From contig NZ_JPMX01000011.1 in assembly GCF_000761485.1 (NCBI RefSeq), forward strand, positions 1-64,000: a stretch of DNA of 64,000 nucleotides, in the 5' to 3' direction. The notes under the pieces are model-generated. The model made no database searches and had not been told where the DNA came from. It saw only the letters and a list, made by a program, of their open reading frames with translations. A program made the position numbers and the translations under genes. Every line of letters starts with the position of its first letter. Position 1 is the stretch's first letter. Origin of the DNA: Modestobacter caceresii (lineage in GTDB: Bacteria; Actinomycetota; Actinomycetes; Mycobacteriales; Geodermatophilaceae). Positions 23,793-60,779 of this stretch are shown here, one piece after another.

Positions 23793-23794
23793 TC

Positions 23795-28713: not shown

Positions 28714-29709
28714 ATGCGCATCCTGGTCACCGGCGGCGCCGGCTTCATCGGCTCGCACTACGTGCGGACCATGCTCTCCGGCGGTTACCCCGGCTTCGAG
28801 GACGCCGAGGTGACGGTCTTCGACAAGCTGACCTACGCCGGTAACCTCGCGAACCTCGCTCCGGTGGCGGAGAACCCGCGGTACCGGTTCGTGCAGGGCG
28901 ACATCTGCTCGGCCGAGGACCTCGACGCCGTCCTGCCCGGGCACGACGCGGTGGTCCACTTCGCCGCCGAGTCGCACGTCGACCGGTCGATCACCGGTGC
29001 GGCCGGGTTCGTGCTGGCCAACGTGCTGGGGTCGCAGCAGGTCTTCGAGTCGGCTCTCCGCGCGGAGGTGGGCCGGGTCGTGCACGTCTCCACCGACGAG
29101 GTCTACGGCTCCATCGACGAGGGCTCCTGGACCGAGGACCACATCCTGGAGCCGAACTCCCCGTACTCCGCGTCCAAGGCCGGCAGCGACCTCATCGCCC
29201 GGGCGTACGCCAAGACCTACGGGATGAACATCTCCATCACCCGGTGCAGCAACAACTACGGGCCGTACCACTTCCCGGAGAAGGTCATCCCGCTGTTCGT
29301 CACCAACCTGCTCGACGGGCTCACGGTGCCGCTGTACGGCGAGGGTGCGAACGTCCGCGACTGGCTGTTCGTCGACGACCACTGCCGTGGCATCCAGCTG
29401 GTGCTGGAGAAGGGCGCGCCCGGCGAGTACTACAACATCGGCGGCGGCCGCGAGCTGTCCAACCGTGAGCTCACCGAGAAGCTGCTGGAGGCGACCGGGC
29501 GGGACTGGAGCCACGTCGAGCACATCGTCGACCCGCGCGGTGGCGGGCACGACCTGCGCTACTCGGTCGACTACTCGAAGACCGGCGCGCTCGGTTACGC
29601 CCCCCGGATGTCCTTCGAGGACGGGCTCGCGCTCACCGTGCAGTGGTACCGGGACAACCGCGCCTGGTGGGAGCCGCTCAAGGCCGCCGCGGCGACCGCG
29701 CGCGCATGA
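28714..29709 (+). CDS. rmlB: dTDP-glucose 4,6-dehydratase
   Basis: Second step of dTDP-L-rhamnose synthesis. The 331-residue extended SDR shows the NAD motif VTGGAGFIGSHYV, FAAESHVDRS, STDEVYGS with the catalytic Thr-Asp-Glu, SPYSASKAGSD (YxxxK), and RCSNNYGPYHFPEKVIP. GAAGGG lies about 13 bases before the ATG. The stop overlaps rmlD by four bases. Confidence 0.95.
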   Translation: MRILVTGGAGFIGSHYVRTMLSGGYPGFEDAEVTVFDKLTYAGNLANLAPVAENPRYRFVQGDICSAEDLDAVLPGHDAVVHFAAESHVDRSITGAAGFVLANVLGSQQVFESALRAEVGRVVHVSTDEVYGSIDEGSWTEDHILEPNSPYSASKAGSDLIARAYAKTYGMNISITRCSNNYGPYHFPEKVIPLFVTNLLDGLTVPLYGEGANVRDWLFVDDHCRGIQLVLEKGAPGEYYNIGGGRELSNRELTEKLLEATGRDWSHVEHIVDPRGGGHDLRYSVDYSKTGALGYAPRMSFEDGLALTVQWYRDNRAWWEPLKAAAATARA

Positions 29710-30599
29710 GCACCGCCTCGCCGATCAGTTGGCTGGTCACCGGCGCCCGCGGGCAGCTGGGCCACGACCTGCTCGGGGTGCTCTCCGGGCGGCCGGACGA
29801 CCAGGTGACGGCGGTCGGCCGGGCCGAGGTCGACCTCACCGACGAGTCCTCCGTCCGGGCCACGGTGCGCGACTGGCTGGACCGGTCCGCCGGTTCCCGG
29901 GCGGTGCTGCTGAACGCCGCCGCGTACACGGCGGTCGACCCGGCCGAGACCGACGAGGCCACCGCCCAGGTCGTCAACGGCGCGGCGCCGGGGTGGCTGG
30001 CCGAGGAGATGGCCGGCCGCGGGCGGCTGGTGCACGTTTCCACCGACTACGTCTTCGACGGCTCCGCCACCGAGCCCTACCGGGTGGACTCGCCCACGGC
30101 TCCCCGGTCGGCGTACGGCCGCACCAAGCTGGCCGGCGAGCAGGCGATCGCCGCGGTCGGGGACGACGCGACCGTGGTCCGCACCGCATGGGTGTACGGC
30201 CGGCACGGTGGGAACTTCGTCCGCACGATGACCAACCTGGAGGCCCAGCGCGAGACCCTCTCGGTCGTCGACGACCAGGTCGGCTCGCCGACGTGGTCGG
30301 CCGACCTCGCCGCGGGACTCGTCGAGCTGGGGGAGCGGGTCGACGCCGTCCCACCGGTGCTGCACTGCACGAACAGCGGGCAGGTCAGCTGGTTCGGCCT
30401 GGCTCGCGCCGTGTTCGAGGAGCTGGGTGCCGACCCGGAGCGGGTGCAGCCGACGACCACGGATGCCTTCCCCCGCCCGGCGCCGCGACCGGCGTACTCG
30501 GTCCTCGACGGGTCCGCGTGGGGGGCGGCAGGGCTCACCCCGACCCGTCCCTGGCGTGAGGCGCTCCACGTGGCCATGCAGCAGGGGTTCCGCGACTGA
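29706..30599 (+). CDS. rmlD: dTDP-4-dehydrorhamnose reductase
   Basis: Last step of dTDP-L-rhamnose synthesis. The 297 residues start with WLVTGARGQLGHDL, then NAAAYTAVDPAE, STDYVFDG, and YGRTKLAGEQ (YxxxK), all typical of RmlD. The ATG at 29706 forms an ATGA overlap with rmlB; the longer frame from 29643 lies inside rmlB. rmlA and rmlC are elsewhere in the window. Confidence 0.95.
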   Translation: MSTASPISWLVTGARGQLGHDLLGVLSGRPDDQVTAVGRAEVDLTDESSVRATVRDWLDRSAGSRAVLLNAAAYTAVDPAETDEATAQVVNGAAPGWLAEEMAGRGRLVHVSTDYVFDGSATEPYRVDSPTAPRSAYGRTKLAGEQAIAAVGDDATVVRTAWVYGRHGGNFVRTMTNLEAQRETLSVVDDQVGSPTWSADLAAGLVELGERVDAVPPVLHCTNSGQVSWFGLARAVFEELGADPERVQPTTTDAFPRPAPRPAYSVLDGSAWGAAGLTPTRPWREALHVAMQQGFRD

Positions 30600-37312: not shown

Positions 37313-38746
37313 TCAGGTGAGCATCGTGTGGGCCATCCCGGCGGCCGACGCGACGGCCACGGCAGCGAAGGCCACGCGAGCCGGCTTGGGGCGGATCATC
37401 GTCAGCCCGATGGCGAGCGCGGCCGGGACGAGCGACAGGCCGTACCGGGAGGTGATCAGGACGAAGATGTTGACCGCTTCGTAGTTCACGATGATCAGCA
37501 GCATCGGGACGAACAGCGCCGTGCCGCCCAGGGCGAACGCCAGCGCGCGGACCTGGCTGCCCCGTGCGGCCATCACGGCGCCGAGGATCGTCAGGGTGAT
37601 CAACCCGTAGTCGGTCAGCACCGCGACGAGCCGGGCCGTGTCCCCGGTCAGGGTCGTGTCGTAGAACTCCGGGTTGATCGGCGTGAAGAACGCGTCCATG
37701 GAGCTGATCAGCCACATCGGCTCGAAACTGGGGGCGAAGAACGACTGGTTCTGCGGGACCAGCAGCGGGTCCATGGTCTGCAGCTGGGCCTGGACGACGG
37801 TCCAGGCCAGCCCCACGACGGCGGAGGTGACCCCGAGGGCGACGATGGCCAGCAGGGGCCTGCGGGACGGCAGCCACTCCCTCCAGGAACGGGGGTTCGT
37901 GCCCTGCCAGTGTCGGGCGAGCACGAACAACGCGACCGCGATGACCATCGTCACGTTGGTCGACTTGATGGCCACGGCGACGGCCGCGATCAGCACCAGC
38001 CACCGGAGTCCGAGCAGGCCCCGGTCCCATCTCAGCGCGGCCAGGGTCAGCGCCGCGCCGGCCGGCAGGGCCGTGACGTCGTTGTTGACGATGGTGAAGG
38101 TCTGCAGGATCACCGGCGAGGCGGCCAGGACCAGGATGCCGGCCGCGCCGACCCACTTGTGCACGCCCAGCTCACGGAAGAGCCGCCACGCGATCCCCAC
38201 GAACAGTGCCCACCACAGGACGGAGGAGAAGCGCATGACGTTGACCAGGTCGCCGTCGACGCCCAGTGCGCTGCCCGCGAGCGCGGCGACCGCCGGGGTG
38301 ACGTAGTAGAACGGCGCGTGGATGTAGGCGGTGTCGTAACCACCGCCGGGCATCCGGCTCAGGTCGTACGGACCTCCGCACGGCATGCCGAGGGGAGCCG
38401 CCGTGTCGATCCACCGGCAGGCCAGGATGTCCTGTCCCTCCTCGGTGAAGGTGTCCCCGGCTCCGACGGCGTTCCCGTCCAGCAGGTGCAGGACGTAGTC
38501 GATGTGCTGGATCTCGTCCACGGGCGACAGTGGGTTGTAGATCGCGATGTGGAGGACGAACAGGGCGGAGGTGACCACCAGCGCGCCCCACCAGGCGATC
38601 GAGTTCCTCGCGCGGGCGAGGAACCGGCCCCCGGTCCTGGCGGCGTGGGACCCGGTCGAGGTCGTCGAGCCGGGGCCGGTCCCTTCGGCGAGCACGTCGT
38701 GCTGGTGCCCCGCCTCGGCTCTGCCATCTATCTCAGTGCTCGTCAT
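37313..38746 (-). CDS. Multi-pass membrane protein, GT-C glycosyltransferase-like
   Basis: A 477-residue protein: ~45 polar N-terminal residues, then about ten to eleven membrane helices. The first external loop has PLSPVDEIQHIDYVLHLLDG, with an acidic motif as in GT-C enzymes, followed by AYIHAPFYYVTPAVAAL, a loop pattern common in DUF2142-like and related GT-C proteins. The ATG at 38746 is used; the open frame further upstream is non-coding. It is divergent from the WbdD-like gene. Likely substrate: a polyprenyl-phosphate sugar for the exported glycan (inference). Confidence 0.72.
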   Translation of the reverse strand: MTSTEIDGRAEAGHQHDVLAEGTGPGSTTSTGSHAARTGGRFLARARNSIAWWGALVVTSALFVLHIAIYNPLSPVDEIQHIDYVLHLLDGNAVGAGDTFTEEGQDILACRWIDTAAPLGMPCGGPYDLSRMPGGGYDTAYIHAPFYYVTPAVAALAGSALGVDGDLVNVMRFSSVLWWALFVGIAWRLFRELGVHKWVGAAGILVLAASPVILQTFTIVNNDVTALPAGAALTLAALRWDRGLLGLRWLVLIAAVAVAIKSTNVTMVIAVALFVLARHWQGTNPRSWREWLPSRRPLLAIVALGVTSAVVGLAWTVVQAQLQTMDPLLVPQNQSFFAPSFEPMWLISSMDAFFTPINPEFYDTTLTGDTARLVAVLTDYGLITLTILGAVMAARGSQVRALAFALGGTALFVPMLLIIVNYEAVNIFVLITSRYGLSLVPAALAIGLTMIRPKPARVAFAAVAVASAAGMAHTMLT

Positions 38747-39115: not shown

Positions 39116-41068
39116 ATGCCCCCCACCGTTCCCTCCGTAGCCGTCGAGACCGCCACGCCGATCCGGCAGGCACGTCCGGACGCGGTGTCGGGGAGCCCGA
39201 CGCTGCTCCGGGACGTCGGTTCCGGCTACCGGGACGGCGCCGAGGAGGCGCTGCTGGAGCTGGTGCGCGGCAGCGAGGACCGTGGGTCCCTCAACGAGGA
39301 GCTCCACTCCCGGGCGGGCGGCTGGGCCGAGCGCTACCACCTGGACCGCCAGCGGGCGAACGTGCTGCGGGCGTTCGAGGTCGGGTCGGCCACCCGGGTG
39401 CTCGAGGTGGGTGCCGGGTGCGGCGCCATGAGCCGTTACCTGGCCGAGGAGTGCGCCGTCGTGGACGCCCTCGAGCCGGTGCCGGCGCGCGCGGCCGTGG
39501 CCGCCGCGCGGCTGGCCGACCGCCCCGGGGCCCGGGTCTTCACCGGTGAGCTCGCGGACCTGCCGGACGAGCCCTCCTACGACCTGGTGGTCGTCATCGG
39601 CGTGCTGGAGTACGTGGGCGGCGGAACGGCCGAGGAGGCCCCCTACCTGGCGTTCCTCGACGAGATCCGTCGCCGGCTGCTGCCCGGAGGGCGGCTGCTG
39701 CTGGCCATCGAGAACAAGCTCGGTGTCAAGTACCTGGCAGGTTCACCCGAGGACCACAGCGACCGGGCCTACGACTCGCTGGAGGACTACCCGGTCGGCT
39801 CCCCGGCGCGGACCTTCGACCGGGCGGCGCTGGGCAGCCTGTTCCAGCGCGCCGGCATGGACCCCACCTTCTTCAGTGCGTTCCCCGACTACAAGCTCAC
39901 CCGCGCCGTGATCGCCGACGAGCTCATGGTCCACCCCTCGGGGCTGGCCGGTCGCCTGCCGCGTTTCCCGAGCCCCGACTGGCAGACCGCCCGGGACTTC
40001 GGCCCGAGCGAGGAGCTGCTGTGGCGCACCCTGGTCTCGGCCGGCCAGGGCAAGGAGCACGGCAACTCGTTCGTCGTCGTCGGCACCCCTGACGGCAGCC
40101 AGCAGGACCTCTGGCCGACCGACCGGCGGGCCGCCTTCTACACGACGGAGCGGCGTCCCGGGCGGGCCACCGAGAGCGTCGTCCGTCAGGACGGGACGGG
40201 CCTGGTGCTCGAGCGCAGCGTGCTCGGGGACCGACGCGAATCGGCTGGACCTGCGCACCGCGTCAACTCCGGCCCGATCCTGCCCGGCAGCTCGCTCGTC
40301 GACGAGATCGCCAAGGGCGACGTGGAGTTCACCCGCCGTGCGCTGACCGAGTGGCGCGAGCTGGTGGAGGCCTCGGCCGCGGAGCCCGACGGGGTGGCCG
40401 TCGACCTCGTCCCGCACAACCTGCTGGTCGACGAGGACGGCGGGCTGGTCCACATCGACGACGAGTGGCGCAGCACGGAGTGGACTGTCGACGACGTCGT
40501 CGCACGAGGCCTCATCTGGTTGTGCGAGCGGCTGTCCACCGTGCCGACCCCGTGGCAGACCCGGCCGTCCCGGCGGGCCCTGCTGGACGAGTTGGGCGCG
40601 CTGGTCGACGTGCACCTCGACGACGAGCGGCTGTCCCGGACCCTGCACCGCGAGGCCGTGCTGCAGACCGAGCTCCTGCGCTGTGGCCGCGACGACGAGG
40701 CCTTCGCAGCGGAGGTCGAGCGCACCGAGGGTGAGCTCAAGGGGCTGCTGGACCACCCCATGTCACCGCTGCGCCCCAAGCTCGGCCCGCTCATCGCCGA
40801 GCGGGACCAGGCGCGGGCCGAGGTGGCGCAGCTGCGTTCGGAGGCCGAGCAGGCCCGGCAGCTCGAGGCGCAGCTGCACGACGAGGTGGCGCGCACCCAT
40901 GCCGCGCTCGAGGTGACGGTGCAGGAGCTGACCGGGATCAAGGAGTCGGGCGGGTACCGCGCCCTGTCTCGTGGCCGGGTCGTCGCCGGCCGGGTGGTGC
41001 CCCGTGGCTCGGTCCGGCGCTCGGTCCTCGGCGGTGTCCTGGACGCCGTCCGCCGCCGGGTCCGGTGA
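39116..41068 (+). CDS. WbdD-like methyltransferase/kinase-like protein with C-terminal coiled coil
   Basis: A 650-residue protein with three parts. Residues ~70-290 are a class I SAM methyltransferase: VLEVGAGCGAMSRYL at 95-109, YDLVVVIGVLEYV near 155, LLPGGRLLLAIEN near 185. Residues ~330-540 look like a protein-kinase/APH fold: beta strands SVVRQDGTGLVLERS, a catalytic-loop-like DLVPHN at 430-435, and a metal-site-like HIDDEW at 446-451. Residues ~555-610 form a coiled coil (ERDQARAEVAQLRSEAEQAR...), ending in a basic amphipathic tail. This is the architecture of E. coli WbdD, which methylates/phosphorylates the O-antigen end and sets its length. ATG 39116 has AGAGG upstream. The ABC exporter follows. 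The kinase part is inferred. Confidence 0.72.
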   Translation: MPPTVPSVAVETATPIRQARPDAVSGSPTLLRDVGSGYRDGAEEALLELVRGSEDRGSLNEELHSRAGGWAERYHLDRQRANVLRAFEVGSATRVLEVGAGCGAMSRYLAEECAVVDALEPVPARAAVAAARLADRPGARVFTGELADLPDEPSYDLVVVIGVLEYVGGGTAEEAPYLAFLDEIRRRLLPGGRLLLAIENKLGVKYLAGSPEDHSDRAYDSLEDYPVGSPARTFDRAALGSLFQRAGMDPTFFSAFPDYKLTRAVIADELMVHPSGLAGRLPRFPSPDWQTARDFGPSEELLWRTLVSAGQGKEHGNSFVVVGTPDGSQQDLWPTDRRAAFYTTERRPGRATESVVRQDGTGLVLERSVLGDRRESAGPAHRVNSGPILPGSSLVDEIAKGDVEFTRRALTEWRELVEASAAEPDGVAVDLVPHNLLVDEDGGLVHIDDEWRSTEWTVDDVVARGLIWLCERLSTVPTPWQTRPSRRALLDELGALVDVHLDDERLSRTLHREAVLQTELLRCGRDDEAFAAEVERTEGELKGLLDHPMSPLRPKLGPLIAERDQARAEVAQLRSEAEQARQLEAQLHDEVARTHAALEVTVQELTGIKESGGYRALSRGRVVAGRVVPRGSVRRSVLGGVLDAVRRRVR

Positions 41069-41158
41069 CCCCTGGGGCCGGCCGTGACCACCGGGGTCAC
41101 TGGGACGGCTCCCCTCGGCGCGTCGCTCGAGACGGCCGTTCCGCCAGGTACTGAGAGG

Positions 41159-41194
41159 TAAGGTTCCGTCACGATGCGAGAACAACAGTCATGA
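41159..41194 (+). promoter_or_regulatory. Possible promoter and six-codon leader ORF coupled to wzm
   Basis: TAAGGT at 41159-41164 lies nine bases before an ATG at 41174. That ATG opens a six-codon frame (MREQQS) whose TGA at 41192-41194 overlaps the wzm ATG at 41191 (ATGA). wzm itself has no ribosome-binding site, so coupling through this tiny frame would explain its initiation. Confidence 0.4.
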
Positions 41195-42024
41195 GCGTCG
41201 TGAGTGACCTCAAGGACTCCCGAGGGCTCCTGGTCAACCTGACCCTCCGCGAGGTCCGGGGCAAGTACAAGCGCACCCTGCTCGGTCAGGGGTGGTCGCT
41301 GCTCAACCCGATCGCGACCCTGCTGATCTACACCCTGGTCTTCGGGTTCGTGCTCCGCGTGCCGGTGCCCGTGGGCGAGGACAGCGGCCTGCAGGTGTTC
41401 GTCCTCTTCCTGGCCTGTGCCCTGCTGCCGTGGAACTTCTTCAACAACGCGGTGAGCAGTGGCATGGGCTCGCTCATCGCCAACGCCAACCTGCTGCGCA
41501 AGGTCTTCTTCTGGCGGCCGACGCTGGTGGTCGCGACGGTCCTGTCGTTGAACGTCACCTTCGCCATCGAGCTGGGCGTGCTGGTGGTGCTGCTGCTGGT
41601 CTTCGGCAGCATGCCGCTGCCGTGGATCCCGTTGCTGGTCGTCGTCGTCGTCCTGCTGACGGCCTTCGCCCTCGGCATCGCGCTGCTGCTGTCGATCGCC
41701 AACGTCTACTTCCGGGACACCCAGCACTTCGTCACCATCGGCATGCAGCTGTGGTTCTACGCGACGCCGATCGTCTACCCGTACCAGCTCATCCAGGACC
41801 AGGCCGCCCGCATGCGGGCGGCCGGGAACGACTTCCCGCTGGAGACGATCTACCGCCTCAACCCGCTGGAGCGGTTCGTGAGCGTCTTCCGGGCCATGCT
41901 CTACGACAACGTCATGCCGTACTGGGGAGACCTGCTCTTCTGCCTCGTGGCGGCAGTCGGCTCCCTGGTGATCGGCATCGTGGTGTTCAACCGGAGTCAG
42001 CACCGCCTCGTGGAGGAACTGTGA
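41191..42024 (+). CDS. wzm: ABC-2 polysaccharide export permease (Wzm)
   Basis: Membrane half of an ABC exporter of lipid-linked polysaccharide. The 277 residues show the amphipathic start LLVNLTLREVRGKYKRTLLGQGWSLLNP, typical of Wzm/TagG/RfbA permeases, then six membrane helices, with VYFRDTQHFVTIGMQLWFYATPIVYP before the last pair. The stop overlaps wzt by four bases (GTGA). M. tuberculosis has a related Wzm for galactan export. The upstream chain-terminator-like gene and the Wzt C-terminal domain point to an O9a-like export mode. Confidence 0.93.
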   Translation: MSVVSDLKDSRGLLVNLTLREVRGKYKRTLLGQGWSLLNPIATLLIYTLVFGFVLRVPVPVGEDSGLQVFVLFLACALLPWNFFNNAVSSGMGSLIANANLLRKVFFWRPTLVVATVLSLNVTFAIELGVLVVLLLVFGSMPLPWIPLLVVVVVLLTAFALGIALLLSIANVYFRDTQHFVTIGMQLWFYATPIVYPYQLIQDQAARMRAAGNDFPLETIYRLNPLERFVSVFRAMLYDNVMPYWGDLLFCLVAAVGSLVIGIVVFNRSQHRLVEEL

Positions 42025-43292
42025 GCAGCACCCCGGCCGTCGTGGTCGACGAGGTCTCGAAGCGGTTCCGGCTGTACAAGGAGCGCAACCAGTCCCTCAA
42101 GGCGGCCCTCATGCGCGGGGGCCGGGCGAGCTACGACGAGTACTGGGCGCTGCGCGGCGTCTCCTTCGAGATCCCGCAGGGCTCGACCTTCGCGCTGATC
42201 GGCGAGAACGGGTCGGGCAAGTCGACCCTGCTCAAGTGCATCGCCCGGATCCTGGAGCCGGAGAAGGGGGACATCCGCACCCAGGGCACGGTCGCCGCCC
42301 TGCTGGAGCTGGGGTCGGGCTTCCACCCCGAGTTGTCCGGTCGGGAGAACGTCTTCCTCAACGGCTCGATCCTGGGCATGACCAAGCGTGAGCTGGAGCG
42401 CAAGTTCGACGAGATCGTCGACTTCGCCGGCATCGAGGCCTTCATCGACCAGCCGGTCAAGAACTACTCCTCGGGCATGTACATGCGCCTGGGCTTCTCC
42501 GTGGCGATCAACGTCGACCCGGACGTGCTCCTGGTCGACGAGGTGCTCGCCGTCGGCGACGCCGCCTTCCAGGAGAAGTGCATGGAGAAGTTCGTCGACT
42601 TCCGCCGCGCGGGCAAGACGGTGGTCATCGTCAGCCACGCGATGGGGTCCATGCGGACGCTGTGCGACCAGGCCGCGTGGCTCGACCGCGGCTCTCTCGT
42701 GGAGGTCGGCCGGGCGGACCAGATCGTCGACCGCTACGTCGACAAGAGCCACGAGAAGGAGGTCGCCCCCTCGTCCTCGGCCACGCCGGCGTCGTCGGAC
42801 GGCGCCACTCCCGACGGCGCACCGGTCAAGACGCGGATCGGGTCCGGCGAGGCGATCCTGACGGACGTCACCGTCCTGGACGCCCAGGGACTGCCGGCCA
42901 ACCGGTTCCGGACCGGCGAGCAGGCCACCATCCGGATCTCCTACGAGTGCTCGGAGCGAGTCGAGCGGCCGGCCTTCGCGCTGGCGCTGGACACCGTCGA
43001 CGGCATGCGCATCTGGGCGCACCACACCCGCGACGGCGGGCTGGACATCGCCTACATCGAGGGGTCGGGCCACATCGACCTCGCGATCCCCAGCCTCACC
43101 CTGCAGCCCTACACGTTCGACCTCAGCGCCCGCATCCTGGACCACACGCTCACCCACACCTACGACTTCCTGCGCCACTGCTACCGGTTCGTCGTCGAGA
43201 CCGGTGAGCTGCGCGAGTCCGGGGGAGTGGTCGCGCTCGGTGGTCGTTGGAACGCAGATCTTCCCTCAATCGCCTCGGAGGCCACCGTCTGA
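42021..43292 (+). CDS. wzt: Polysaccharide ABC exporter ATPase with C-terminal glycan-recognition-type domain (Wzt)
   Basis: The 423 residues have an ATPase domain (1-~245) with Walker A GENGSGKST at 61-69, signature YSSGMYMRLGF near 150, Walker B VLLVDEVLAVGD near 168 and the switch His in VSHAMG. A Ser/Pro/Asp-rich linker follows, then a ~150-residue beta-rich domain from ~274 (AILTDVTVLDAQG, TIRISYECSERVERPAFALAL, ending VVALGGRWN). This domain matches the Wzt C-terminal fold that in E. coli O9a/O8 binds the modified glycan end. The mycobacterial galactan Wzt lacks it. GTG 42021 overlaps wzm; the stop shares a base with the next start. Confidence 0.92.
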   Translation: MSSTPAVVVDEVSKRFRLYKERNQSLKAALMRGGRASYDEYWALRGVSFEIPQGSTFALIGENGSGKSTLLKCIARILEPEKGDIRTQGTVAALLELGSGFHPELSGRENVFLNGSILGMTKRELERKFDEIVDFAGIEAFIDQPVKNYSSGMYMRLGFSVAINVDPDVLLVDEVLAVGDAAFQEKCMEKFVDFRRAGKTVVIVSHAMGSMRTLCDQAAWLDRGSLVEVGRADQIVDRYVDKSHEKEVAPSSSATPASSDGATPDGAPVKTRIGSGEAILTDVTVLDAQGLPANRFRTGEQATIRISYECSERVERPAFALALDTVDGMRIWAHHTRDGGLDIAYIEGSGHIDLAIPSLTLQPYTFDLSARILDHTLTHTYDFLRHCYRFVVETGELRESGGVVALGGRWNADLPSIASEATV

Positions 43293-45796
43293 TGCCCACC
43301 GAACCGCTGGTCTCGGTCGTCCTCGTCAACTACAAGGGCGCCGAGGACACCATCACCTGCCTGCGGTCCCTCGGCGAGCTGGACTGGCCCGCGGACCAGC
43401 TCGAGCTGATCGTCGTGGACAACGACTCCGGGGGCGACGACGTCGACCGGATCCGTCGCGAGGTGCCCGGGGCCGTCGTCATCGAGGCGGGTGAGAACAG
43501 CGGCTTCGCCGGCGGGTGCAACACCGGCGTCCGCCACGCCCGCGGTGAGGTCGTCGGTTTCATCAACAACGACGCCCGCCCCGACCCGCAGTGGGTGCGC
43601 GCCGCCGTCGACGTCCTCCAGCGAGACCGCTCGGTCGCCTCGGTCGCCAGCAAGGTGCTGGACTGGGAGGGCACCCACATCGACTACGTCGACGGGTCCC
43701 TCACCTGGTTCGGCATGGGCTACAAGCGCGAGGTCGAACGGCCCGACAGCGGCGAGTGGGAGACCCCGCGGGACGTGCTCTTCGGCACGGGCGCGGCGAT
43801 GTTCGTCCGCAAGGACGTCTACGAGACCGTCGGCGGTTTCGACGAGCGCTTCTTCATGTTCTACGAGGACGTCGACCTGGGCTGGCGGCTGAACCTGCTG
43901 GGCTGGCGGGTGCGCTACGTGCCCGACTCGATCGCCTTCCACAAGCACCACGCGTCGATGAACAAGTTCGGCAGCTACCGGGAGACGTTCCTGCTGGAGC
44001 GCAACGCGCTGTTCAGCATGATCAAGAACTACGGGGACGACGCCCTGTCGCGCACGTTGGCGCCGGCGCTCATGCTGGCCATCAGCCGGGCCGCTGAGCG
44101 TGGCGAGATCGACCCGGGCGCCCTGGACCTGAAGCGTTCACCCGGCGGCGACGACATCGGCGAGATGAGCGTCCCCAAGGTCACCATGGCCGGGGTGCTG
44201 GCCATCGCCGACGCCGCCACGGACGTGGCCGGGCTGTGGGCGGACCGGGCGCGGCTGCAGGAGCAGCGCACCCGCAACGACCTGGAGCTCGCGCCGCTGT
44301 TCCGCCAGGCCATCGAGCCGGCGTTCCCGCTGGCGCGCTACCTCAAGGCGCACGGTGAGCTCGTCGAGTCCTTCGGCATCGCCGACCTCTTCGCCACCCG
44401 GCGGCGCATCCTGGTGATCACCGGCGACCCGCTGGCGGCCAAGATGGCCGGCCCGGCGATGCGCGCCTGGGCGATCGCCGAGCACCTCTCCGACGAGCAC
44501 GACGTCCGCCTGGTCTCGACCAGCGGGGCGAGCATCTCCGACCCGCGCTTCCAGGTCTCCGCAGTGGGGGTGCCCGACCAGCTCAAGCCGCACGAGGCGT
44601 GGGCCGACATCATCGTCTTCCAGGGCTTCGCCATGGCCGCGGCGCCCTGGCTGGTCCGCTCGCAGAAGATCATCGTCTGCGACATCTACGACCCGATGCA
44701 CCTCGAGCAGCTGGAGCAGACCCGCGGGCAGGAGGGCGGCCAGCGCACGCGCGACGTCGCCAACACGACCACGGTGCTGAACCAGCAGCTCAGCCGCGGT
44801 GACTTCTTCCTCTGCGCGAGCGAGAAGCAGCGGCACTTCTGGCTGGGGCAGATGGCCGCCGTCGGCCGGCTCAACCCGGCGACCTACGATGCGGACTCCT
44901 CGATGAGCAAGCTGCTCGCCGTCGTCCCCTTCGGGCTGAGCTCGGTGGCCCCTCGCCGCACCCGTCCGGCGATCAAGGGCGTCGTCCCCGGCATCGCCGA
45001 GACCGACAAGGTCGTGCTGTGGGCCGGCGGCGTCTACAACTGGTTCGACCCGCTGACCCTGGTCCGGGCGATCGACCAGCTGCGCCAGCGCCACCCCGAT
45101 GTGCGGATGTTCTTCCTGGGCATGCGCAACCCCAACCCGCACGTGCCCGAGATGCGCATGGCCGCGGCGACCCGAGAGCTCTCCGACTCCCTGGGCCTCA
45201 CCGGCAAGCACGTGTTCTTCAACGAGGAGTGGGTCGACTTCCGGGACCGGGAGAACTACCTCCTGGACGCGGACGTCGGCGTGTCCACGCACTTCGAGCA
45301 CGTGGAGACCACGTTCTCCTTCCGGACCCGGATGCTGGACTACCTGTGGGCACAGCTGCCCATCGTGGCCACCGGCGGCGACACGTTCGGCGATCTGATC
45401 TCGGCACAGGGGCTCGGTGTGACGGTGCCCGAGCAGGACGTCGACGCGCTGGCTGCCGGGCTGGAGCGGACGCTCTACGACGAGCCGTTCGCCGCTGCCT
45501 GCCGGGACGCGGTCGACCGGGTCCGCAACGACTACGCGTGGGAGCGGGCGCTCAGCCCGCTGCTGGAGTTCTGCCGCGCCCCGCGTCGGGCGCCCGACCT
45601 CGCCGGCGCGAACGGCAAGGACCTCGAGGCGGTCGTCCAGGGGCGGCTCATCGACACGTCGTACGAGCCGAACCTGCGTGGCGACCTCGGGTTGATCCGG
45701 GAGTACCTGCAGCAGGGCGGACCGCGTGAGCTGGGTCGTCGGGTCGCCGGGCGGGTCCGCAAGAACGTCCGCGACGGGGTCGCCCGCTTCCGGTGA
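43292..45796 (+). CDS. Double glycosyltransferase (GT2 + GT4-like fusion)
   Basis: An 834-residue cytoplasmic protein. The first ~270 residues are a rhamnosyltransferase-type GT2: VSVVLVNYKGAEDT, VVDNDSGG, NSGFAGGCNTG, FINNDARPD (acidic metal motif), and FFMFYEDVDLGWRLN. After a helical linker (~270-365) a second GT-B-type domain runs to ~720 with RRILVITGDPLAAKMAGPAMRAW, VVLWAGGVYNWFDP and FSFRTRMLDYLWAQLPIVATGGD. The tail is basic. One polypeptide carrying two transferases could build a repeating disaccharide. ATG 43292 overlaps the wzt stop (TGATG), making it the last gene of the export operon. Confidence 0.85.
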   Translation: MPTEPLVSVVLVNYKGAEDTITCLRSLGELDWPADQLELIVVDNDSGGDDVDRIRREVPGAVVIEAGENSGFAGGCNTGVRHARGEVVGFINNDARPDPQWVRAAVDVLQRDRSVASVASKVLDWEGTHIDYVDGSLTWFGMGYKREVERPDSGEWETPRDVLFGTGAAMFVRKDVYETVGGFDERFFMFYEDVDLGWRLNLLGWRVRYVPDSIAFHKHHASMNKFGSYRETFLLERNALFSMIKNYGDDALSRTLAPALMLAISRAAERGEIDPGALDLKRSPGGDDIGEMSVPKVTMAGVLAIADAATDVAGLWADRARLQEQRTRNDLELAPLFRQAIEPAFPLARYLKAHGELVESFGIADLFATRRRILVITGDPLAAKMAGPAMRAWAIAEHLSDEHDVRLVSTSGASISDPRFQVSAVGVPDQLKPHEAWADIIVFQGFAMAAAPWLVRSQKIIVCDIYDPMHLEQLEQTRGQEGGQRTRDVANTTTVLNQQLSRGDFFLCASEKQRHFWLGQMAAVGRLNPATYDADSSMSKLLAVVPFGLSSVAPRRTRPAIKGVVPGIAETDKVVLWAGGVYNWFDPLTLVRAIDQLRQRHPDVRMFFLGMRNPNPHVPEMRMAAATRELSDSLGLTGKHVFFNEEWVDFRDRENYLLDADVGVSTHFEHVETTFSFRTRMLDYLWAQLPIVATGGDTFGDLISAQGLGVTVPEQDVDALAAGLERTLYDEPFAAACRDAVDRVRNDYAWERALSPLLEFCRAPRRAPDLAGANGKDLEAVVQGRLIDTSYEPNLRGDLGLIREYLQQGGPRELGRRVAGRVRKNVRDGVARFR

Positions 45797-45833: not shown

Positions 45834-46892
45834 TCAGTCGGCGACGAGGTGGGTCGCGGTCTGCGCTCGCGGGACGAGCGCGGACCGGCCCGCCGCCCGG
45901 CGCACCCGCACGGCGCTGGGGAGCAACCGCAGGTAGGAGCCGAGCGCCCGCAGCCGGGTGACCGTCATCGCCGCGGCGGGCCCTTGGCGCAGGGTCAGGT
46001 GCAGCACGGTCACCGGGTACCGCAGGGCCGCCCGCACGGCCAGCCGGCCGGGGGCGTTCCGCGTCAGCACCAGGAGCCGGTTCCGGTCGTCGTGGAAGCG
46101 GAACAGCGCCGACCTGACGTCGCTGCTGGCAGCGTGCTCGTGCCGGACGACCGCCGTCGGCTCGTACCGGATCGTCCACCCGGCCGTGCGGAGCCGCCAC
46201 GACAGGTCGGTGTCCTCGTAGTACAGGAACAGCCGGGGCTCGAAGTCGCCGACCTCGGCCAGCGCGGCGGCGCGCAGCAACACCGCTGCCCCGCAGAAGG
46301 CGAAGACCTCGGCAGGGGGTTCCCGCCCCTCGTCCGGCTGCAACCACCCGCGGTCCCGGCCGTAGCCCGACCGGGTCACCTCGTTGCCGGTGGAGTTGAT
46401 CAGGTCGACGTCGCCGTCCGGGGTCGGGCGGTAGGTGCCCGTCGGTGCCACCACGTCGCCCTCGGCGGCCGGGGCGCCGGGCGGCAACCGGCGGAAGCGC
46501 GGGCGGAGCAGCACCTTGCCGGTCACGGCAGCCACCCGCTCGGCCCCGGGCGCCTCGATCGCCCGCAGCAGCGCCGACAGGAAGCCCGGCTCGGGGACCG
46601 CGTCGTTGTTCAGCAGCACCGCGTACGGGGTCGACGCCTCCGCCAGGGCGCGGTGCGCACCTCCCGCGAAACCGGTGTTGTACGGCGCGGTCAGGACCCG
46701 GACGTCGGGGTGGTGCCGGGCCAGGTGCTCGACGGTCCCGTCGGTGGAGGCGTTGTCGAGCACCACCACGTCGAAACGGTGCCGACCCAGATCCTGCCGG
46801 GCCACGCCGGCGAGGCAGTCGTCGAGGAGGTGCCGACCGTTCCAGCTGACGATCACGACGGTGAGCACGGGACGCCGCGGGGTGTCGTTCAC
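45834..46892 (-). CDS. Family 2 glycosyltransferase
   Basis: A 352-residue GT2 enzyme: LTVVIVSWNGRHLLDDCL at the start, VVLDNASTDGTVEHL, NTGFAGGAHRAL, LLNNDAVPEPGFL (acidic metal motif), and the rhamnosyltransferase-like YYEDTDLSWRLRTAGW near 255. A C-terminal amphipathic region (~280-340) may sit on the membrane. The GTG at 46892 overlaps the stop of the upstream GT4 gene (GTGA), so the pair is co-translated. Donor sugar not determinable; dTDP-rhamnose is likely from the family branch. Confidence 0.88.
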   Translation of the reverse strand: MNDTPRRPVLTVVIVSWNGRHLLDDCLAGVARQDLGRHRFDVVVLDNASTDGTVEHLARHHPDVRVLTAPYNTGFAGGAHRALAEASTPYAVLLNNDAVPEPGFLSALLRAIEAPGAERVAAVTGKVLLRPRFRRLPPGAPAAEGDVVAPTGTYRPTPDGDVDLINSTGNEVTRSGYGRDRGWLQPDEGREPPAEVFAFCGAAVLLRAAALAEVGDFEPRLFLYYEDTDLSWRLRTAGWTIRYEPTAVVRHEHAASSDVRSALFRFHDDRNRLLVLTRNAPGRLAVRAALRYPVTVLHLTLRQGPAAAMTVTRLRALGSYLRLLPSAVRVRRAAGRSALVPRAQTATHLVAD

Positions 46893-47971
46893 CCGACGGC
46901 CCGTCGGTAGGCGTCGACGGTCGCCTCGGCGCAGGCCCGCCACGTGTGCTGTCGTGCCCAGGCCGCAGCCTCGGCCCGGCGTGGTCCATCCGAGGGCGCA
47001 GCGGTGGTGAGCGCCTCGGCCCAGCCGTCCACGTCCGTCGGGGCGACCAGGGTGGCGTGCCCGCCGGCGACCTCCCGGTGTGCCGGGACGTCGCTGGCGA
47101 CCACCGCGGTGCCGGCGGCCATGGCCTCCAGCAGCGGCAACCCGAAGCCCTCGTAGTGGGACGGCAGGAGCACGGCCCGGGCCCGGGCGACCACACCGTG
47201 CAGCTCGGACTGGCTCAGCCAGCCGGTCACGTGCACTCCGGCGCCCTGCTCGGCCTCCGGCCCCCAGCCGGCCGGCCCGGCGAGCACCAGGTCGGGGACC
47301 GTGCCCTCCGCGCGCGCCCGCCGGTGTGCATCGAGCAGGGTGCTGAGGTTCTTCCGCGGCTCGCGTGCCCCGACGAAGAGCAGGAACTCGTCCGGCAGGC
47401 CCCGGGCCGCCAGCCACGCATCGTCGACCGGGTGGGCCCCGAACCAGGCCGGGTCCACCCCGAGCGGGGTCACGACGACCCGGTCCTCCGGCAGGGAGTA
47501 GGCCGCGGTCACCTCGTCGGCGACCGCCCGGGTCGGGGTGACGACCACGGTGCCCAGCCGGTCCAGCGCGCGGGGCACCAGGTCCCGGTAGCGCAGCACC
47601 GCGTCGGTCACCCACTCGGGGAAACGGAGGTAGGTCAGGTCGTGCACGGTCACGACCGACGCCGTGCGCAGCGCCGGCGGCGCGACGAAGTTGGTGGCGT
47701 GGAAGACGTCGACCCTGCCGCTGAACGCCTCGACCGGCGGGAGGGGAGCCCGCGTCCAGGCGGCCTGCAGCGCTCGGGCGGGCACCGGCAGATGCCGCCA
47801 CTGCACCGCCGGGGGCAGTTCGGCCGGACGCCGCCCGCCACGCAGCGTGAACGGCACGGCCCGCAGGTCCAGGCCGGGCAGTTCCGCCAACCCGGACGTG
47901 AGGCCGCGGACGTATGTGCCGACCCCGGTGCTACGGCCGAGCAGCGGGGTGGCGTCGAGGGCGATCTTCAT
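46889..47971 (-). CDS. Family 4 glycosyltransferase
   Basis: A 360-residue GT-B enzyme. N-terminal domain: KIALDATPLLGRSTGVGTYVRGL and HATNFVAPPAL, VTVHDLTYLRFP. C-terminal domain: LLFVGAREPRKNLSTLLDA and LLPSHYEGFGLPLLEAMAAGTAVV, the GT4 E-x7-E signature that binds the nucleotide sugar. ATG 47971. It is the first gene of a two-gene minus-strand unit with the GT2 at 45834, and divergent from another GT4 gene. The mannosyl/rhamnosyl class is typical of this subgroup but the donor is unproven. Confidence 0.9.
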   Translation of the reverse strand: MKIALDATPLLGRSTGVGTYVRGLTSGLAELPGLDLRAVPFTLRGGRRPAELPPAVQWRHLPVPARALQAAWTRAPLPPVEAFSGRVDVFHATNFVAPPALRTASVVTVHDLTYLRFPEWVTDAVLRYRDLVPRALDRLGTVVVTPTRAVADEVTAAYSLPEDRVVVTPLGVDPAWFGAHPVDDAWLAARGLPDEFLLFVGAREPRKNLSTLLDAHRRARAEGTVPDLVLAGPAGWGPEAEQGAGVHVTGWLSQSELHGVVARARAVLLPSHYEGFGLPLLEAMAAGTAVVASDVPAHREVAGGHATLVAPTDVDGWAEALTTAAPSDGPRRAEAAAWARQHTWRACAEATVDAYRRAVG

Positions 47972-48049: not shown

Positions 48050-49147
48050 GTGGAGGTGGCCGTCGTCCTGGAACAGTGCTTGAGCCCTGTCCCCGGCGGA
48101 ACCGGCCGGTACTCCGCGGAACTGGCCCGCTCGCTGGTGCGCCCGCCGGGCATCGACGTCCGTGGCTGGGTCGCCTGGCACCGGCACACCACCGCTGCGC
48201 AGGTCCCGGGTGTCCGGGGACCGCGACGGCTCCCCCTGGCCCGGCGTCCCCTGGTCGCGGCATGGGAGCGGGGCGTCGGGCCCGCTCCGCGACGTGCGGA
48301 CCTGGTCCACGCGCCGACCCTCCTGTTCCCGCCGCGGCGCGGTCGCCCGCTCGTGGTGACCATCCACGACGCCGTCCCCTGGACGCACCCCGAGACTCTG
48401 ACCCCGCGGGGGGTCCGCTGGCACCGGTCCATGGCCGAGCGCGCAGCAGAGCAGGCGGATGCCGTCGTCGTCCCGACCCGCGCGGTGGAGGCGGCGCTGC
48501 GCCCGCACGTGCGGCTGCCCCGGGTGGAGGTCGTGGGTGAGGGCGTCGCGGCCGTCCTCACCGGCCCCGTCCCCGACGCCGAGGCACGTGCCGACCGGCT
48601 CGGGCTGCCCCCGGGCGGGTACCTGCTCAGTCTCGCCACCCTCGAGCCACGCAAGGGGCTCGACGTGCTGCTGGCGGCGCTGGCCCTCCCCGGCGCCCCC
48701 GATCTGCCGCTCCTGGTCGCCGGCCAGGCCGGATGGGGCGGCGTCGACCCGCTGCGGCGAGCTGCGGAGCTCGGGCTGCCCCCGGGCCGGGTGCGGGTCC
48801 TCGGGCGGGTCACCGACGAGGACCTGGCCGTCCTCCTCGCCCGAGCGACCGTGCTGGTGGTGCCCAGCCGGGCCGAGGGGTTCGGCCTGCCGGTCCTGGA
48901 GGGGATGGCGGCCGGGGTCCCGGTGGTCACCTCCGACGACCCGGCGTTGCTCGAGGTGGGGGACGGGGCGACCCGGACGGCGCCGGTGGGCGACGCGCCG
49001 GCGTTGGCCCGGGTGCTGGGCGAGGTCGTGGGTGAGCCGGGGGCGCGGGCGGAGATGGTGGCCGCCGGGCGACAGGTGTCGGCCGCGGCGACCTGGGACC
49101 GGGCAGCCGACCGTCTGGTGGAGCTGTACGCCGAGCTGTGCGGTTGA
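48050..49147 (+). CDS. Family 4 glycosyltransferase
   Basis: A 365-residue GT-B enzyme: VAVVLEQCLSPVPGGTGRYSAEL, VTIHDAVPWTHPE, then SLATLEPRKGLDVLLAAL and VVPSRAEGFGLPVLEGMAAGVPVV with the E-x7-E motif. The domain layout is like the GT4 at 46889 but the sequences are well diverged. GTG 48050 is the first codon after the leaderless-type hexamer. It is followed about 100 bases later by a large membrane protein with its own promoter. Confidence 0.88.
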   Translation: MEVAVVLEQCLSPVPGGTGRYSAELARSLVRPPGIDVRGWVAWHRHTTAAQVPGVRGPRRLPLARRPLVAAWERGVGPAPRRADLVHAPTLLFPPRRGRPLVVTIHDAVPWTHPETLTPRGVRWHRSMAERAAEQADAVVVPTRAVEAALRPHVRLPRVEVVGEGVAAVLTGPVPDAEARADRLGLPPGGYLLSLATLEPRKGLDVLLAALALPGAPDLPLLVAGQAGWGGVDPLRRAAELGLPPGRVRVLGRVTDEDLAVLLARATVLVVPSRAEGFGLPVLEGMAAGVPVVTSDDPALLEVGDGATRTAPVGDAPALARVLGEVVGEPGARAEMVAAGRQVSAAATWDRAADRLVELYAELCG

Positions 49148-51170: not shown

Positions 51171-52046
51171 TCAGTCCAGTCCGGGCTCGGCCAGGAGGTT
51201 GAGGAGGTAGTCGCCGTAGCCGCTCTTCTGCAGGGGCTTGGCGAGCGCCTCGAGCTGCCCGGCGTCGATGTAGCCCCGCCGCCAGGCGATCTCCTCGATG
51301 CAGCCGATCTTCCAGCCCTGCCGGTCCTCGACCACCCGGACGAACTCCGAGGCCTGCATCATCGAGACGTGCGTGCCGGTGTCCAGCCACGCGGTGCCAC
51401 GCTCCAGCACGGTGACGGTGAGCTCGCCGCGGCGCAGGTACTCGTCGTTGATCGCGGTGATCTCCAGCTCGCCTCGCTCGCTGGGCGTGATCTTCGAGGC
51501 GATCTCGACGACCCGGTTGTCGTAGAAGTAGAGGCCGGGCACCGCGTAGTTGCTCTTGGGCACGGCCGGCTTCTCCTCGATGGAGATGACCCGGCCGTCG
51601 GCGTCGAACTCCACGACGCCGTAGTCGCGGGGGTTGGCCACGTGATAGGCGAAGACGCGGCCACCGATGGGGTCGGTGTTGGCCCGGAGGTTCTTGCCCA
51701 GGCCGGTGCCGTAGAAGATGTTGTCGCCGAGCACGAGCGCCACCGGCTGGTCGCCGATGAACTCCGCGCCGATGACGAAGGCCTGGGCCAGCCCCTCGGG
51801 CTTCGGCTGGACGGCGTAGCTGATCTCGATGCCGACGTCGGAACCGTCGCCGAGCAGCCGCTGGAACTGCGCCTGGTCGTCGGGGGTGGTGATGATCAGG
51901 ACCTCACGGATCCCGGCGTTCATCAGCAACGACAAGGGGTAGTAGATCATCGGCTTGTCGTAGATGGGCATCAGCTGCTTGCTGATGGCCTTGGTGATCG
52001 GGTAGAGCCGGGTGCCACTTCCGCCCGCCAGGATGATGCCTCGCAT
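51171..52046 (-). CDS. rmlA: Glucose-1-phosphate thymidylyltransferase
   Basis: First step of dTDP-L-rhamnose synthesis (dTTP + glucose-1-P). The 291 residues begin with [24 protein letters not shown], the nucleotidyltransferase loop, then [25 protein letters not shown] and VISIEEKP, all as in RmlA. The ATG at 52046 puts the motif at residue 2, and TACGCT lies six bases upstream; the frame continues 20 codons further without family support. Divergent from a GT4 gene. Confidence 0.96.
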
Positions 52047-54188: not shown

Positions 54189-55286
54189 GTGCAGCACGCG
54201 GTGATCATGGCCGGCGGGTCCGGCACGCGGCTGTGGCCGCTGTCCCGGGCCGCCCGGCCCAAGCAGCTCCTCGACGTCGTCGCCGACGGCGCCGGGGCCC
54301 ACAGCCTGCTCGCCGAGGCGTTCACCCGGCTGCAGGCCGTGCTGCCCGCCGAGCAGATATGGGTCTGCACCGCCGCCCGGTACGGCGACCAGGTCCGGGC
54401 TGCGCTGCCCGAGCTGCGCGCCGACCGGCTGGTGCTGGAGCCGGTCGCCCGGGACACCGCCAACGCCGTCGGGCTGGCCGCGGCGCTCGTCGCCGACGTC
54501 GACCCGGACGCCGAGCTGGCCGTGGTCAGCGCCGACCACGTGATCCGGCCGGTCGAGCGGTTCGCCGACGCGCTGCGCACCGCCTACGACCTGCTCGCCG
54601 TCCGGCCGCGGGCGCTGGTGACCCTGGGCGTCACCCCGACGTCGCCGGCCACCGGCTTCGGGTACGTGCAGAAGGGCGCGGCGACCGAGGTGGCCGGCGC
54701 GAGCGAGGCCGCCTCGTTCCGGGAGAAGCCGGACCGGGCCACCGCCGAGCAGTACCTGGCCAGCGGCGAGTACGTGTGGAACTCCGGGATGTTCGTCTGG
54801 CGGGCGCAGACCGTCCTGGACGCGCTCGCCGACCACCTGCCGGAGTCCGCCGCCGGCCTGGGGCGCATCGTCGCCGCACCGGCCGGCCCGGAGCGGGAGG
54901 CCGTGCTCGCCGAGGTCTTCCCGACACTGCCCAAGATCAGCGTCGACTACGCCGTCCTCGAGCCGGCGGCCGCCGAGCCGGGCCGGGTGGCCGTGGTCGA
55001 CCTGGACGTCGACTGGCTGGACGTCGGCTCCTGGCCGGCCTTGGCCCACACGCTCAGCACCGACGCCGCCGGCAACGCGACCCGTGGGCTGACCGTCCTG
55101 CTGGACAGCTCGGGCAACGTGGTGCTCAGTGACGACCCCGACCACCTGGTCGCGCTGGTCGGCGTCCGGGACAGCGTGGTCGTGCACACCGCGGACGTGA
55201 CGATGGTGTGCCCGGTCGGGGACGCCGAGCGGGTCAAGCAGTTGCTGGCCACGGTGGAGGAGCGGTGCGGCCGGGGCTTCAGTTGA
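54189..55286 (+). CDS. manC: Mannose-1-phosphate guanylyltransferase
   Basis: Makes GDP-mannose for mannosyltransferases. The 365 residues start [26 protein letters not shown], then LEPVARDTANAVGLAA, VVSADHVI, ATGFGYVQKG, FREKPD, and NSGMFVWRA: the complete short ManC/Rv3264c pattern without a fused isomerase domain. GTG 54189 has GGAG seven bases upstream. It follows wbbL by 25 bases. Confidence 0.93.
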   Translation: MQHAVIMAGGSGTRLWPLSRAARPKQLLDVVADGAGAHSLLAEAFTRLQAVLPAEQIWVCTAARYGDQVRAALPELRADRLVLEPVARDTANAVGLAAALVADVDPDAELAVVSADHVIRPVERFADALRTAYDLLAVRPRALVTLGVTPTSPATGFGYVQKGAATEVAGASEAASFREKPDRATAEQYLASGEYVWNSGMFVWRAQTVLDALADHLPESAAGLGRIVAAPAGPEREAVLAEVFPTLPKISVDYAVLEPAAAEPGRVAVVDLDVDWLDVGSWPALAHTLSTDAAGNATRGLTVLLDSSGNVVLSDDPDHLVALVGVRDSVVVHTADVTMVCPVGDAERVKQLLATVEERCGRGFS

Positions 55287-60729: not shown

Positions 60730-60735
60730 GGCTCG

Positions 60736-60741
60736 ACGCTA
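60736..60741 (-). promoter_or_regulatory. Leaderless-type -10 of rmlC
   Basis: TAGCGT on the minus strand, six bases before the rmlC GTG. Confidence 0.5.
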
Positions 60742-60779
60742 GCCGAGTGGCTCCCGCCCGGCCCGACCTGGCCCGGGCG

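Follow-up and report, generated by a model that had tools for sequence, protein, structure and literature searches.

A 650-residue protein encoded next to an ABC glycan exporter in Modestobacter caceresii raises the question of whether an actinobacterium caps the chains of a surface glycan before exporting them, and with which kind of enzyme. The DNA studied, called the window below, was a 64,000-nt stretch of contig NZ_JPMX01000011.1 (assembly GCF_000761485.1), and its features are listed in Table 1. An earlier note on this DNA had proposed that a WbdD-like coiled-coil methyltransferase-kinase sets the cap and that the C-terminal domain of Wzt (Wzt_C) reads it. Such capping remains the best-supported reading of the locus, but the enzyme was found to be of the O7 type and not WbdD-like.

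Table 1. Coordinates of features in the window
Feature	Position	Strand	Basis or remark
LytR-CpsA-Psr (LCP) glycopolymer transferase	27023..28543	-	locus flank
RmlB-like dTDP-glucose 4,6-dehydratase	28714..29709	+	Pfam family only; name presumed
RmlD	29706..30599	+	
PMT_2-family GT-C protein	37313..38746	-	just upstream of terminator
Putative methyltransferase-kinase chain terminator, O7 (ORF6-O7) type	39116..41068	+	650 aa
SAM methyltransferase domain	39353..39865	+	residues ~80-250
Kinase-fold domain	40088..40759	+	residues 325-548; D430, N435, D448, basic R367
58-residue helix, presumed coiled-coil ruler	40772..40945	+	residues 553-610; model, heptad score
Two basic helices, presumed membrane/polymerase docking tail	40949..41062	+	residues 612-627 and 632-649; model, role presumed
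Wzm, ABC-2 permease	41191..42024	+	Pfam
Wzt, ATPase with C-terminal cap-binding-type domain	42021..43292	+	
Wzt_C domain	42828..43232	+	66.9-71.3 bits, cut-off 30.4
GT2-GT4 glycosyltransferase, presumed polymerase	43292..45796	+	
GT2 glycosyltransferase	45834..46892	-	
GT4 glycosyltransferase	46889..47971	-	
GT4 glycosyltransferase	48050..49147	+	
RmlA-like nucleotidyltransferase	51171..52046	-	Pfam family only; name presumed
ManC-like GDP-mannose pyrophosphorylase	54189..55286	+	
RmlC	60127..60729	-	

Domains and family of the 650-residue protein

The division of the protein into a SAM methyltransferase, a kinase-like part, a coil and a basic tail, as read in the earlier note, was confirmed by its domains and by structure prediction, in which the kinase region was modelled as a kinase fold nearest to aminoglycoside phosphotransferases, with APH(3')-Ia as its best match. 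The kinase domain had no Pfam match, the NCBIfam scan of the protein gave no name above cut-off, and the matches of a fold search at full length were filled by methyltransferases. D430 and N435 were identical in all 11 aligned sequences (the window protein and 10 relatives), and D448 was kept in 10 of them. The helix of residues 553-610 was present in the model at low pLDDT, and its heptad score, a weak, home-made measure judged against shuffled sequences, was higher than that of all 200 shuffles. In the methyltransferase model, CgnL tied for the best match. PDB entries 3ssm, which we take to be MycE, and 8ia9 are labeled 'Methyltransferase' and 'Demethylmacrocin O-methyltransferase', respectively. 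AmiN, CcrZ and TvaE are presumably kinase-like antibiotic- or substrate-modifying proteins.

Seven key residues are reported for ORF6-O7, the Klebsiella pneumoniae O7 terminator that joins a methyltransferase to a kinase (Y28, Y66, G91, G93, E112, Y158 and D441; PMC11231755), and all seven have equivalents in the window protein: Y38, Y74, G99, G101, E120 and Y166 at the SAM site, and D430 for the catalytic Asp, which lies in the Pfam-less kinase-fold domain. The comparison rests on these published residues and on an ORF6-like protein from a Pseudomonas asturiensis plasmid as stand-in. This relative carries Y28, Y66, G91, G93, E112, Y158 and D443, matched the window protein in the methyltransferase-kinase region (E 5e-44, 31.6% over 453 positions), and continues into two GT2 stretches. 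For ORF6-O7 itself, AmiN is described as the best kinase-fold match and CgnL likewise for the methyltransferase (PMC11231755). Both proteins combine a CgnL-like methyltransferase, then an APH-like kinase, then a coil, and both belong with an ABC-transporter-dependent glycan. Unlike ORF6-O7 as described, the window protein lacks fused C-terminal GT2 modules and comes from a Gram-positive host; its helix directly follows the kinase, so that there is no space for the Ig/CBM-like domain of ORF6-O7.

WbdD of E. coli O9a has a like job and also joins a methyltransferase, a kinase and a coil in capped-glycan ABC export, but no sequence kinship with the window protein was found. A sequence search with the latter gave no WbdD match at E<=1, and hhalign of its kinase domain against WbdD-type proteins gave a probability of 0.3; on these grounds, the protein being WbdD itself was ruled out. 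In a profile search of the PDB, WbdD was absent from the best 60 of 180 matches, and the lower ones may hold one. The WbdD kinase is described as tyrosine-kinase-like (PMC3482155). By its residues and modelled folds, the window protein is assigned to the ORF6-O7 group and not to WbdD.

Two further kinase-methyltransferase families can be compared by their published descriptions only (PMC9758233). The Lcin_0519 family, reported as remote from WbdD and with proteobacterial groups named, resembles the window protein in its methyltransferase, atypical kinase and coil and in its vicinity to Wzt, Wzm and glycosyltransferase genes. The Lani_1194/NoeA family, reported from Actinobacteria (Micromonosporales) and Methanoculleus, shares an Arg where Lys is usual; the passages describing it do not mention Wzm/Wzt neighbours.

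The Wzm/Wzt exporter and co-occurrence with terminators

The Wzm and Wzt genes that the earlier note saw after the terminator were borne out, and the C-terminal β domain of Wzt is Wzt_C, well identified by Pfam score (Table 1). Among the 150 of 184 candidates scored in the source genome, this Wzt was by far the best Wzt-class match (179.4 bits, the next 93.5), and no second Wzt-class exporter was found. Against the mycobacterial galactan Wzm/Wzt equivalogs NF050108 and NF050109, scores stayed below the required level (177.8 of 400 and 78.4 of 380 bits). The cap-binding pocket of Aquifex Wzt comprises N313, H350 and W362; the profile alignment of the window Wzt to this protein (8dku) ended at the ATPase domain, short of these residues.

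Wzt_C was present in all 11 other genomes or records with an O7-type terminator, one of which holds half the protein. The two lay at most ~5 kb apart in seven, ~15 kb apart in two and on separate contigs in two. Counting the source genome, the full-length terminator was found in 1 of 23 genomes of the genus, 3 of 96 of the Geodermatophilaceae and 4 of 396 of the Actinomycetota, whereas Wzt_C exceeded its cut-off in 34 of the 96 and 205 of the 396. The survey suggested in the earlier note thus upheld the association in one direction, from terminator to Wzt_C, and a two-way correlation was rejected because Wzt_C is common and the terminator rare. Of the 396 genomes, 73 responded to the terminator search; beyond the four and G124, which has the methyltransferase half only, the matches listed cover only part of the methyltransferase region.

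Terminators of the O7 type, the WbdD type and a sugar-O-methyltransferase relative (Mt24-type) occurred in 3, 3 and 5 of the 96 family genomes, without overlap. Wzt_C exceeded its cut-off in 10 of these 11 genomes and in 24 of the 85 others (Fisher p 9.5e-5, a value biased because proximity to Wzt_C was how the WbdD-type and Mt24 families were discovered). The exception, G080, is fragmented and 84% complete and has a WbdD-type protein with no Wzt_C match. Blastococcus tunisiensis (G060; L003, L005 and L146, with equal coordinates) was counted once in the genome tallies; strain DSM 46838 of this species has the same cassette, with a terminator 67% identical to the window protein.

Proposed route of the glycan and its alternatives

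Taken together, 39116-45796 is probably one cassette for the synthesis, termination and export of a surface glycan that contains rhamnose, and its 650-residue protein would phosphorylate and then methylate the chain end before export by Wzm/Wzt. All four rml gene kinds are present in the window (RmlA and RmlB by family only), an RgpF-type rhamnan synthesis gene adjoins the Cellulomonas homologue, and in Herbiconiux (L008) the terminator is fused to GT2 and GT4 domains, the same pair as in the presumed polymerase of the window. The GT2-GT4 protein and neighbouring glycosyltransferases would build up a lipid-linked chain in the cytoplasm, while the terminator would be bound to the membrane by its basic tail, with the coil spacing the catalytic head off the membrane. 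A chain reaching the head would be phosphorylated on its end sugar by the APH-like kinase; the methyltransferase would then methylate the phosphate, and growth would stop. The two reactions and their order are suggested by analogy with ORF6-O7 (PMC11231755). Wzt_C would bind the cap, Wzm/Wzt would export the chain, and the LCP enzyme may attach it to peptidoglycan.

The claim of the earlier note that this mode is undescribed for Gram-positive walls was too strong. Capped ABC-exported glycans are already known in Firmicutes. The S-layer rhamnan of Geobacillus stearothermophilus ends in 2-O-methyl rhamnose, and its Wzt is predicted to bind this cap (PMC2943079). This system (WsaE with Wzm/Wzt) resembles the window in its Gram-positive host, methyl cap and predicted cap reader, and differs in that the cap is 2-O-methyl, the published account names no kinase, and the glycan is destined for an S-layer protein. 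Clostridioides difficile SLCT-11 likewise exports by ABC transporter an S-layer glycan with terminal phosphorylated rhamnose, but the phosphate there is cyclic, and the passages describing it name no capping enzyme (PMC6254364). A literature search found no capped ABC-exported glycan for Actinomycetota; the locus would bring to this phylum the interplay of polymerase, terminator and exporter known from capped O antigens.

Both precedents end on S-layers, and a destination on protein (S-layer or other), or as free extracellular glycan, is a possible though less likely alternative to the wall that is compatible with capping. It is also favored by WsaF-type transferases, which BLAST labels place in 8 of the 33 related loci (Pfam-checked in three), and by the PMT_2-family gene, whose family includes protein mannosyltransferases. 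The LCP transferase flanking the locus, which recurs at at least 59% identity in 9 of the 33 fetched family stretches, argues for the wall; this argument is not decisive, since the gene may serve another polymer.

That the protein is a terminator whose cap is plain O-methyl or plain phosphate, one catalytic domain being idle as such, is unlikely: both active-site sets are kept (the SAM residues and D430/N435/D448). Such caps have parallels in E. coli O8 WbdD, described as a methyltransferase only (PMC3482155), in the cyclic phosphate of SLCT-11, in the incomplete methylation seen in the ORF6-O7 assay (PMC11231755), and in the Mt24-type proteins of related loci, which are methyltransferases only, as is the half protein of G124. 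Internal decoration of the glycan, or another target, with the Wzt adjacency reflecting shared regulation only, is very improbable given the Herbiconiux fusion, Wzt_C within ~15 kb in 9 of the 11 genomes or records, and the characterised O7 homologue being a terminator (PMC11231755), even though L141, L161 and L163 have the same polymerase type without this protein and the Lani_1194/NoeA proteins are thought to decorate secreted molecules (PMC9758233).

Candidate terminators at the corresponding locus of related genomes

At the corresponding locus, related genomes carry a true WbdD homologue, the Mt24-type protein or an FkbM methyltransferase (labeled by Pfam for L137 and by BLAST for five others; L145 is in two pieces). 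Loci were taken as the same when at least one window flank gene was present at >=60% identity, which holds for 24 of the 33 other family loci, L147 qualifying solely through genes from the far left end of the window; the other nine (L160, L161, L169-L175) have no window flank gene in common. Genes were called with a codon model trained on the window, whose calls are to be trusted less in L148-L150, loci from outside the family; in L149 it missed the terminator that the search of the 396 genomes recovers.

A Wzt tree was built from the window and 32 of these loci (L170, without a Wzt call, was omitted, and L145 entered as a 276-aa piece). Terminator type required 7 changes on the 33 rows against 15.9 when shuffled, and host genus 20 against 19.8; 16 rows were labeled 'none', meaning none of five sought types within the fetched stretch. 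On the 17 rows of known type, the values were 4 against 9.7 for type and 10 against 9.0 for genus. Terminator type follows the Wzt tree and host genus does not; terminator and Wzt are co-inherited. Tentatively, a single chromosomal locus of the Geodermatophilaceae might direct a surface glycan that resembles O antigens and varies by serotype. Four unrelated terminators (the O7-type kinase-methyltransferase, WbdD with an N-terminal coil, the sugar-O-methyltransferase relative with a C-terminal coil, and the FkbM methyltransferase) would there be exchanged among genera, each along with the Wzt that reads its cap, and cap and exporter would co-evolve as a cassette in a Gram-positive envelope. Swapped terminators with matched Wzt in sister genomes offer a natural test set for cap recognition by the transporter.

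The L134 protein matched WbdD with an E of 1.5e-40, and H132, H133 and R203 of the WbdD methyltransferase correspond to its H211, H212 and R287 (hand count on the alignment). Its coil lies at the N-terminus, the opposite end from that of the window protein, making the ruler model testable from the other end. Coil scores of L139 and L142 exceeded all their own shuffles, that of L134 (0.95) passed the 95% level only, and those of L137 (FkbM) and L146 did not clearly pass it.

An O7-type candidate terminator and the putative operon next to it

The coordinates and motifs that an earlier note gave for the terminator, Wzm and Wzt region of the window (genome of 4.95 Mb in 139 contigs) held on re-reading. 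The terminator, of 650 residues, has a methyltransferase domain above the Pfam cut-off, followed by a stretch without Pfam match; in the structure model its C-terminal part forms a 58-residue helix and then two basic helices. By our own gene calls, Wzm and Wzt overlap by 4 bases and Wzt and the GT2-GT4 gene by 1 base, which suggests that these three genes form one operon. Among the Wzt-class ATPase matches of its genome the window Wzt led by a wide margin: it reached 179.4 bits and the runner-up 93.5 (150 of 184 candidates scored).

Features of the window and related loci
Feature	Location	Remarks
Terminator	39116-41068 (+)	
Wzm	41191-42024	directly after terminator
Wzt	42021-43292	Wzt_C domain 66.9 bits (cut-off 30.4)
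GT2-GT4 protein	43292-45796	follows Wzt
PMT_2-family gene	37313-38746	directly upstream of terminator
PAP2, UbiA, DprE1-like, DprE2-like genes	23274-26938	adjoin locus
Small frame	33834-34382	before 809-aa gene
809-aa protein	34379-36808	no Pfam match
RmlC	60127-60729 (minus strand); with F420 genes 60127-62818	adjoins F420 genes (F420 ligase, CofD families)
Fused terminator, Herbiconiux daphne	L008:7896-12008	one 1370-aa frame, runs on into GT2 + GT4 domains
Methyltransferase half alone	L012 / G124:C3:18816-19700	328-aa open frame; Wzt_C ~4 kb off
Terminator between two Wzt_C matches	G128:C15:17577-23813	the two matches differ
WbdD homologue	L134:8829-10367 (G025)	E 1.5e-40 to 4uw0
WbdD homologue	L139:5327-6790 (G011)	
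Methyltransf_24 protein	L132:10285-11493	adjoins Wzt; kin in G052, G038, G050, G048

The protein had been called WbdD-like, an assignment that is not upheld: WbdD gave no sequence match to it at E ≤ 1, WbdD-type proteins gave no profile alignment with its kinase domain, and the methyltransferase halves aligned weakly by profile (probability 25). In ORF6-O7, the Klebsiella pneumoniae O7 terminator, the kinase is described as unannotated, AmiN-like and inactivated by D441A (PMC11231755). Each ORF6-O7 residue named there has an equivalent in the window protein, and the spacing 66-91-93-112-158 is exactly preserved as 74-99-101-120-166. A Pseudomonas asturiensis plasmid protein (L017), which has two GT2 stretches at its C-terminus, shares the methyltransferase residue numbers of ORF6-O7 and aligned with the window protein at E 5e-44. 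CgnL was the tied top structural match of the window methyltransferase model and is also the closest match reported in that paper for ORF6-O7. Given these residues and spacing, the plasmid kinship, the CgnL match and the unmatched WbdD, the window protein is, by the features examined, an O7-type terminator of predicted activity. The Herbiconiux relative lacks the three tyrosines among the named residues and keeps the kinase residues.

The enzyme kind is already known. ORF6-O7 phosphorylates and methylates a rhamnose terminus, a direct precedent for the proposed reactions, and its orthologues are reported as proteobacterial, cyanobacterial and from one methanogen (PMC11231755). Work on Aquifex Wzt is a direct precedent for cap binding (PMC9445017). 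The Lcin_0519 family is perhaps of the same enzyme kind, and Lani_1194 represents another methyltransferase-kinase family, reported in Actinobacteria without Wzm/Wzt (both PMC9758233); either family may be the nearer to the window protein. The earlier note knew of no such mode for Gram-positive walls. Capped, ABC-exported glycans are in fact known from Firmicutes S-layers (PMC2943079, PMC6254364); for Actinomycetota no report of such a system was found in literature that was mainly open-licence, with few subscription journals. New here are an actinobacterial O7-type branch linked to Wzm/Wzt and candidate terminators that are exchanged, each together with its Wzt, at a single locus.

Rml-type genes, ManC and an RgpF-type gene next to the Cellulomonas homologue point to rhamnose and mannose as the probable sugars. 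Whole-cell rhamnose is recorded for some Blastococcus strains and not for others (PMC9686282), which fits a strain-variable glycan. The chain may be attached to peptidoglycan, as the LCP gene at the locus flank would suggest, or else to protein, as the PMT_2-family gene would suggest.

Distribution and linkage to Wzt_C

Full-length relatives occurred, own genome counted, in 1 of 23 genomes of the genus, 3 of 96 of the family Geodermatophilaceae and 4 of 396 of the phylum. Nakamurella, Cellulomonas and Herbiconiux have others, and two more are plasmid-borne, one in Citrobacter braakii and one in P. asturiensis. On a tree of 11 terminator rows, those of the window, Blastococcus, G091, Nakamurella, Cellulomonas and Herbiconiux formed one group (98/99); the more distant phylum members G113, G128 and G163 fell outside it, G163 with the plasmid rows (91/91). 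The Herbiconiux fusion corresponds to the window terminator and its GT2-GT4 neighbour as a single polypeptide, an echo of the O7 layout.

The expected co-occurrence was found in one direction. Wzt_C exceeded the cut-off in each of the 11 other genomes or records that carry a terminator (G124 the methyltransferase half only). The two lie within ~5 kb of each other in seven (Blastococcus tunisiensis G060, G091, G113, G128, G124 and both plasmids); in G491 and G493 they share a contig at a distance of ~15 kb, and in G163 and G492 they are on separate contigs. The reverse fails, Wzt_C itself being present in 34/96 family and 205/396 phylum genomes.

Exchange of candidate terminators at a shared locus

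Stretches were fetched in sets of 20 (17 from the family) and 16 (all family), which took in every other family genome with Wzt_C above the cut-off. At least one window flank gene was present at ≥60% identity in 24 of 33 family stretches (L147 solely via genes at the extreme left of the window), the flank genes being PAP2, UbiA, DprE1/E2 and LCP on one side and GT4, GT2, ManC, SDR and Rml genes on the other. Wzm, Wzt and the glycosyltransferases vary among the flank-sharing stretches, and the methyltransferases near Wzt differ from locus to locus in the family. The O7-type terminator was found in the window, G060 and G091, and true WbdD homologues (487-512 aa) in G025, of the same genus, G011 and G080, the last on a stretch without Wzt. 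According to PMC3482155, WbdD phosphate methylation requires H132, H133 and R203; these are kept in L134 as H211, H212 and R287 (counted by hand on the 4uw0 alignment). In the L134 and L139 homologues a coil-like segment and basic start are N-terminal and not C-terminal. In five genomes a Methyltransf_24 protein was found whose C-terminus forms a coil-like tail; its L132 member, the one examined for kinship, is related to a macrolide-sugar O-methyltransferase, and a WsaF-type gene was present at 5/5 of these loci (BLAST label; Pfam-checked in L132). An FkbM methyltransferase near Wzt, an additional candidate terminator, was present in L137, L140, L145, L151, L167 and L168 (Pfam-checked in L137 only), and 16 of 33 tree rows had none of the methyltransferase types looked for.

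On the 33-protein Wzt tree the terminator label changed 7 times, against a mean of 15.9 and a minimum of 12 in 300 shuffles, and the genus label 20 times (shuffled mean 19.8). The Methyltransf_24 rows formed one clade spanning three genera, and the WbdD rows and window plus G060 one each spanning two (all 100/99). Against coupling, the G091 row is set off by a long branch, and the rows closest to the window clade (G022; next G067, G076 and G064) were of the same GT2-GT4 type without O7-type terminator, G067 having another methyltransferase two genes further on. Despite these rows, the label changes and multi-genus clades indicate that exporter and terminator have mostly been inherited jointly, and not with the host genus.

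The PAP2, UbiA and DprE1/E2-like genes of the window we take to be the decaprenyl-phospho-arabinose route; L133, L140 and L167 had UbiA beside the locus without DprE1/E2 labels. The 809-aa protein was kept at 41-52% in L132, L135, L138, L146, L160, L162 and L163, and the small frame before it was likewise retained in some related loci.
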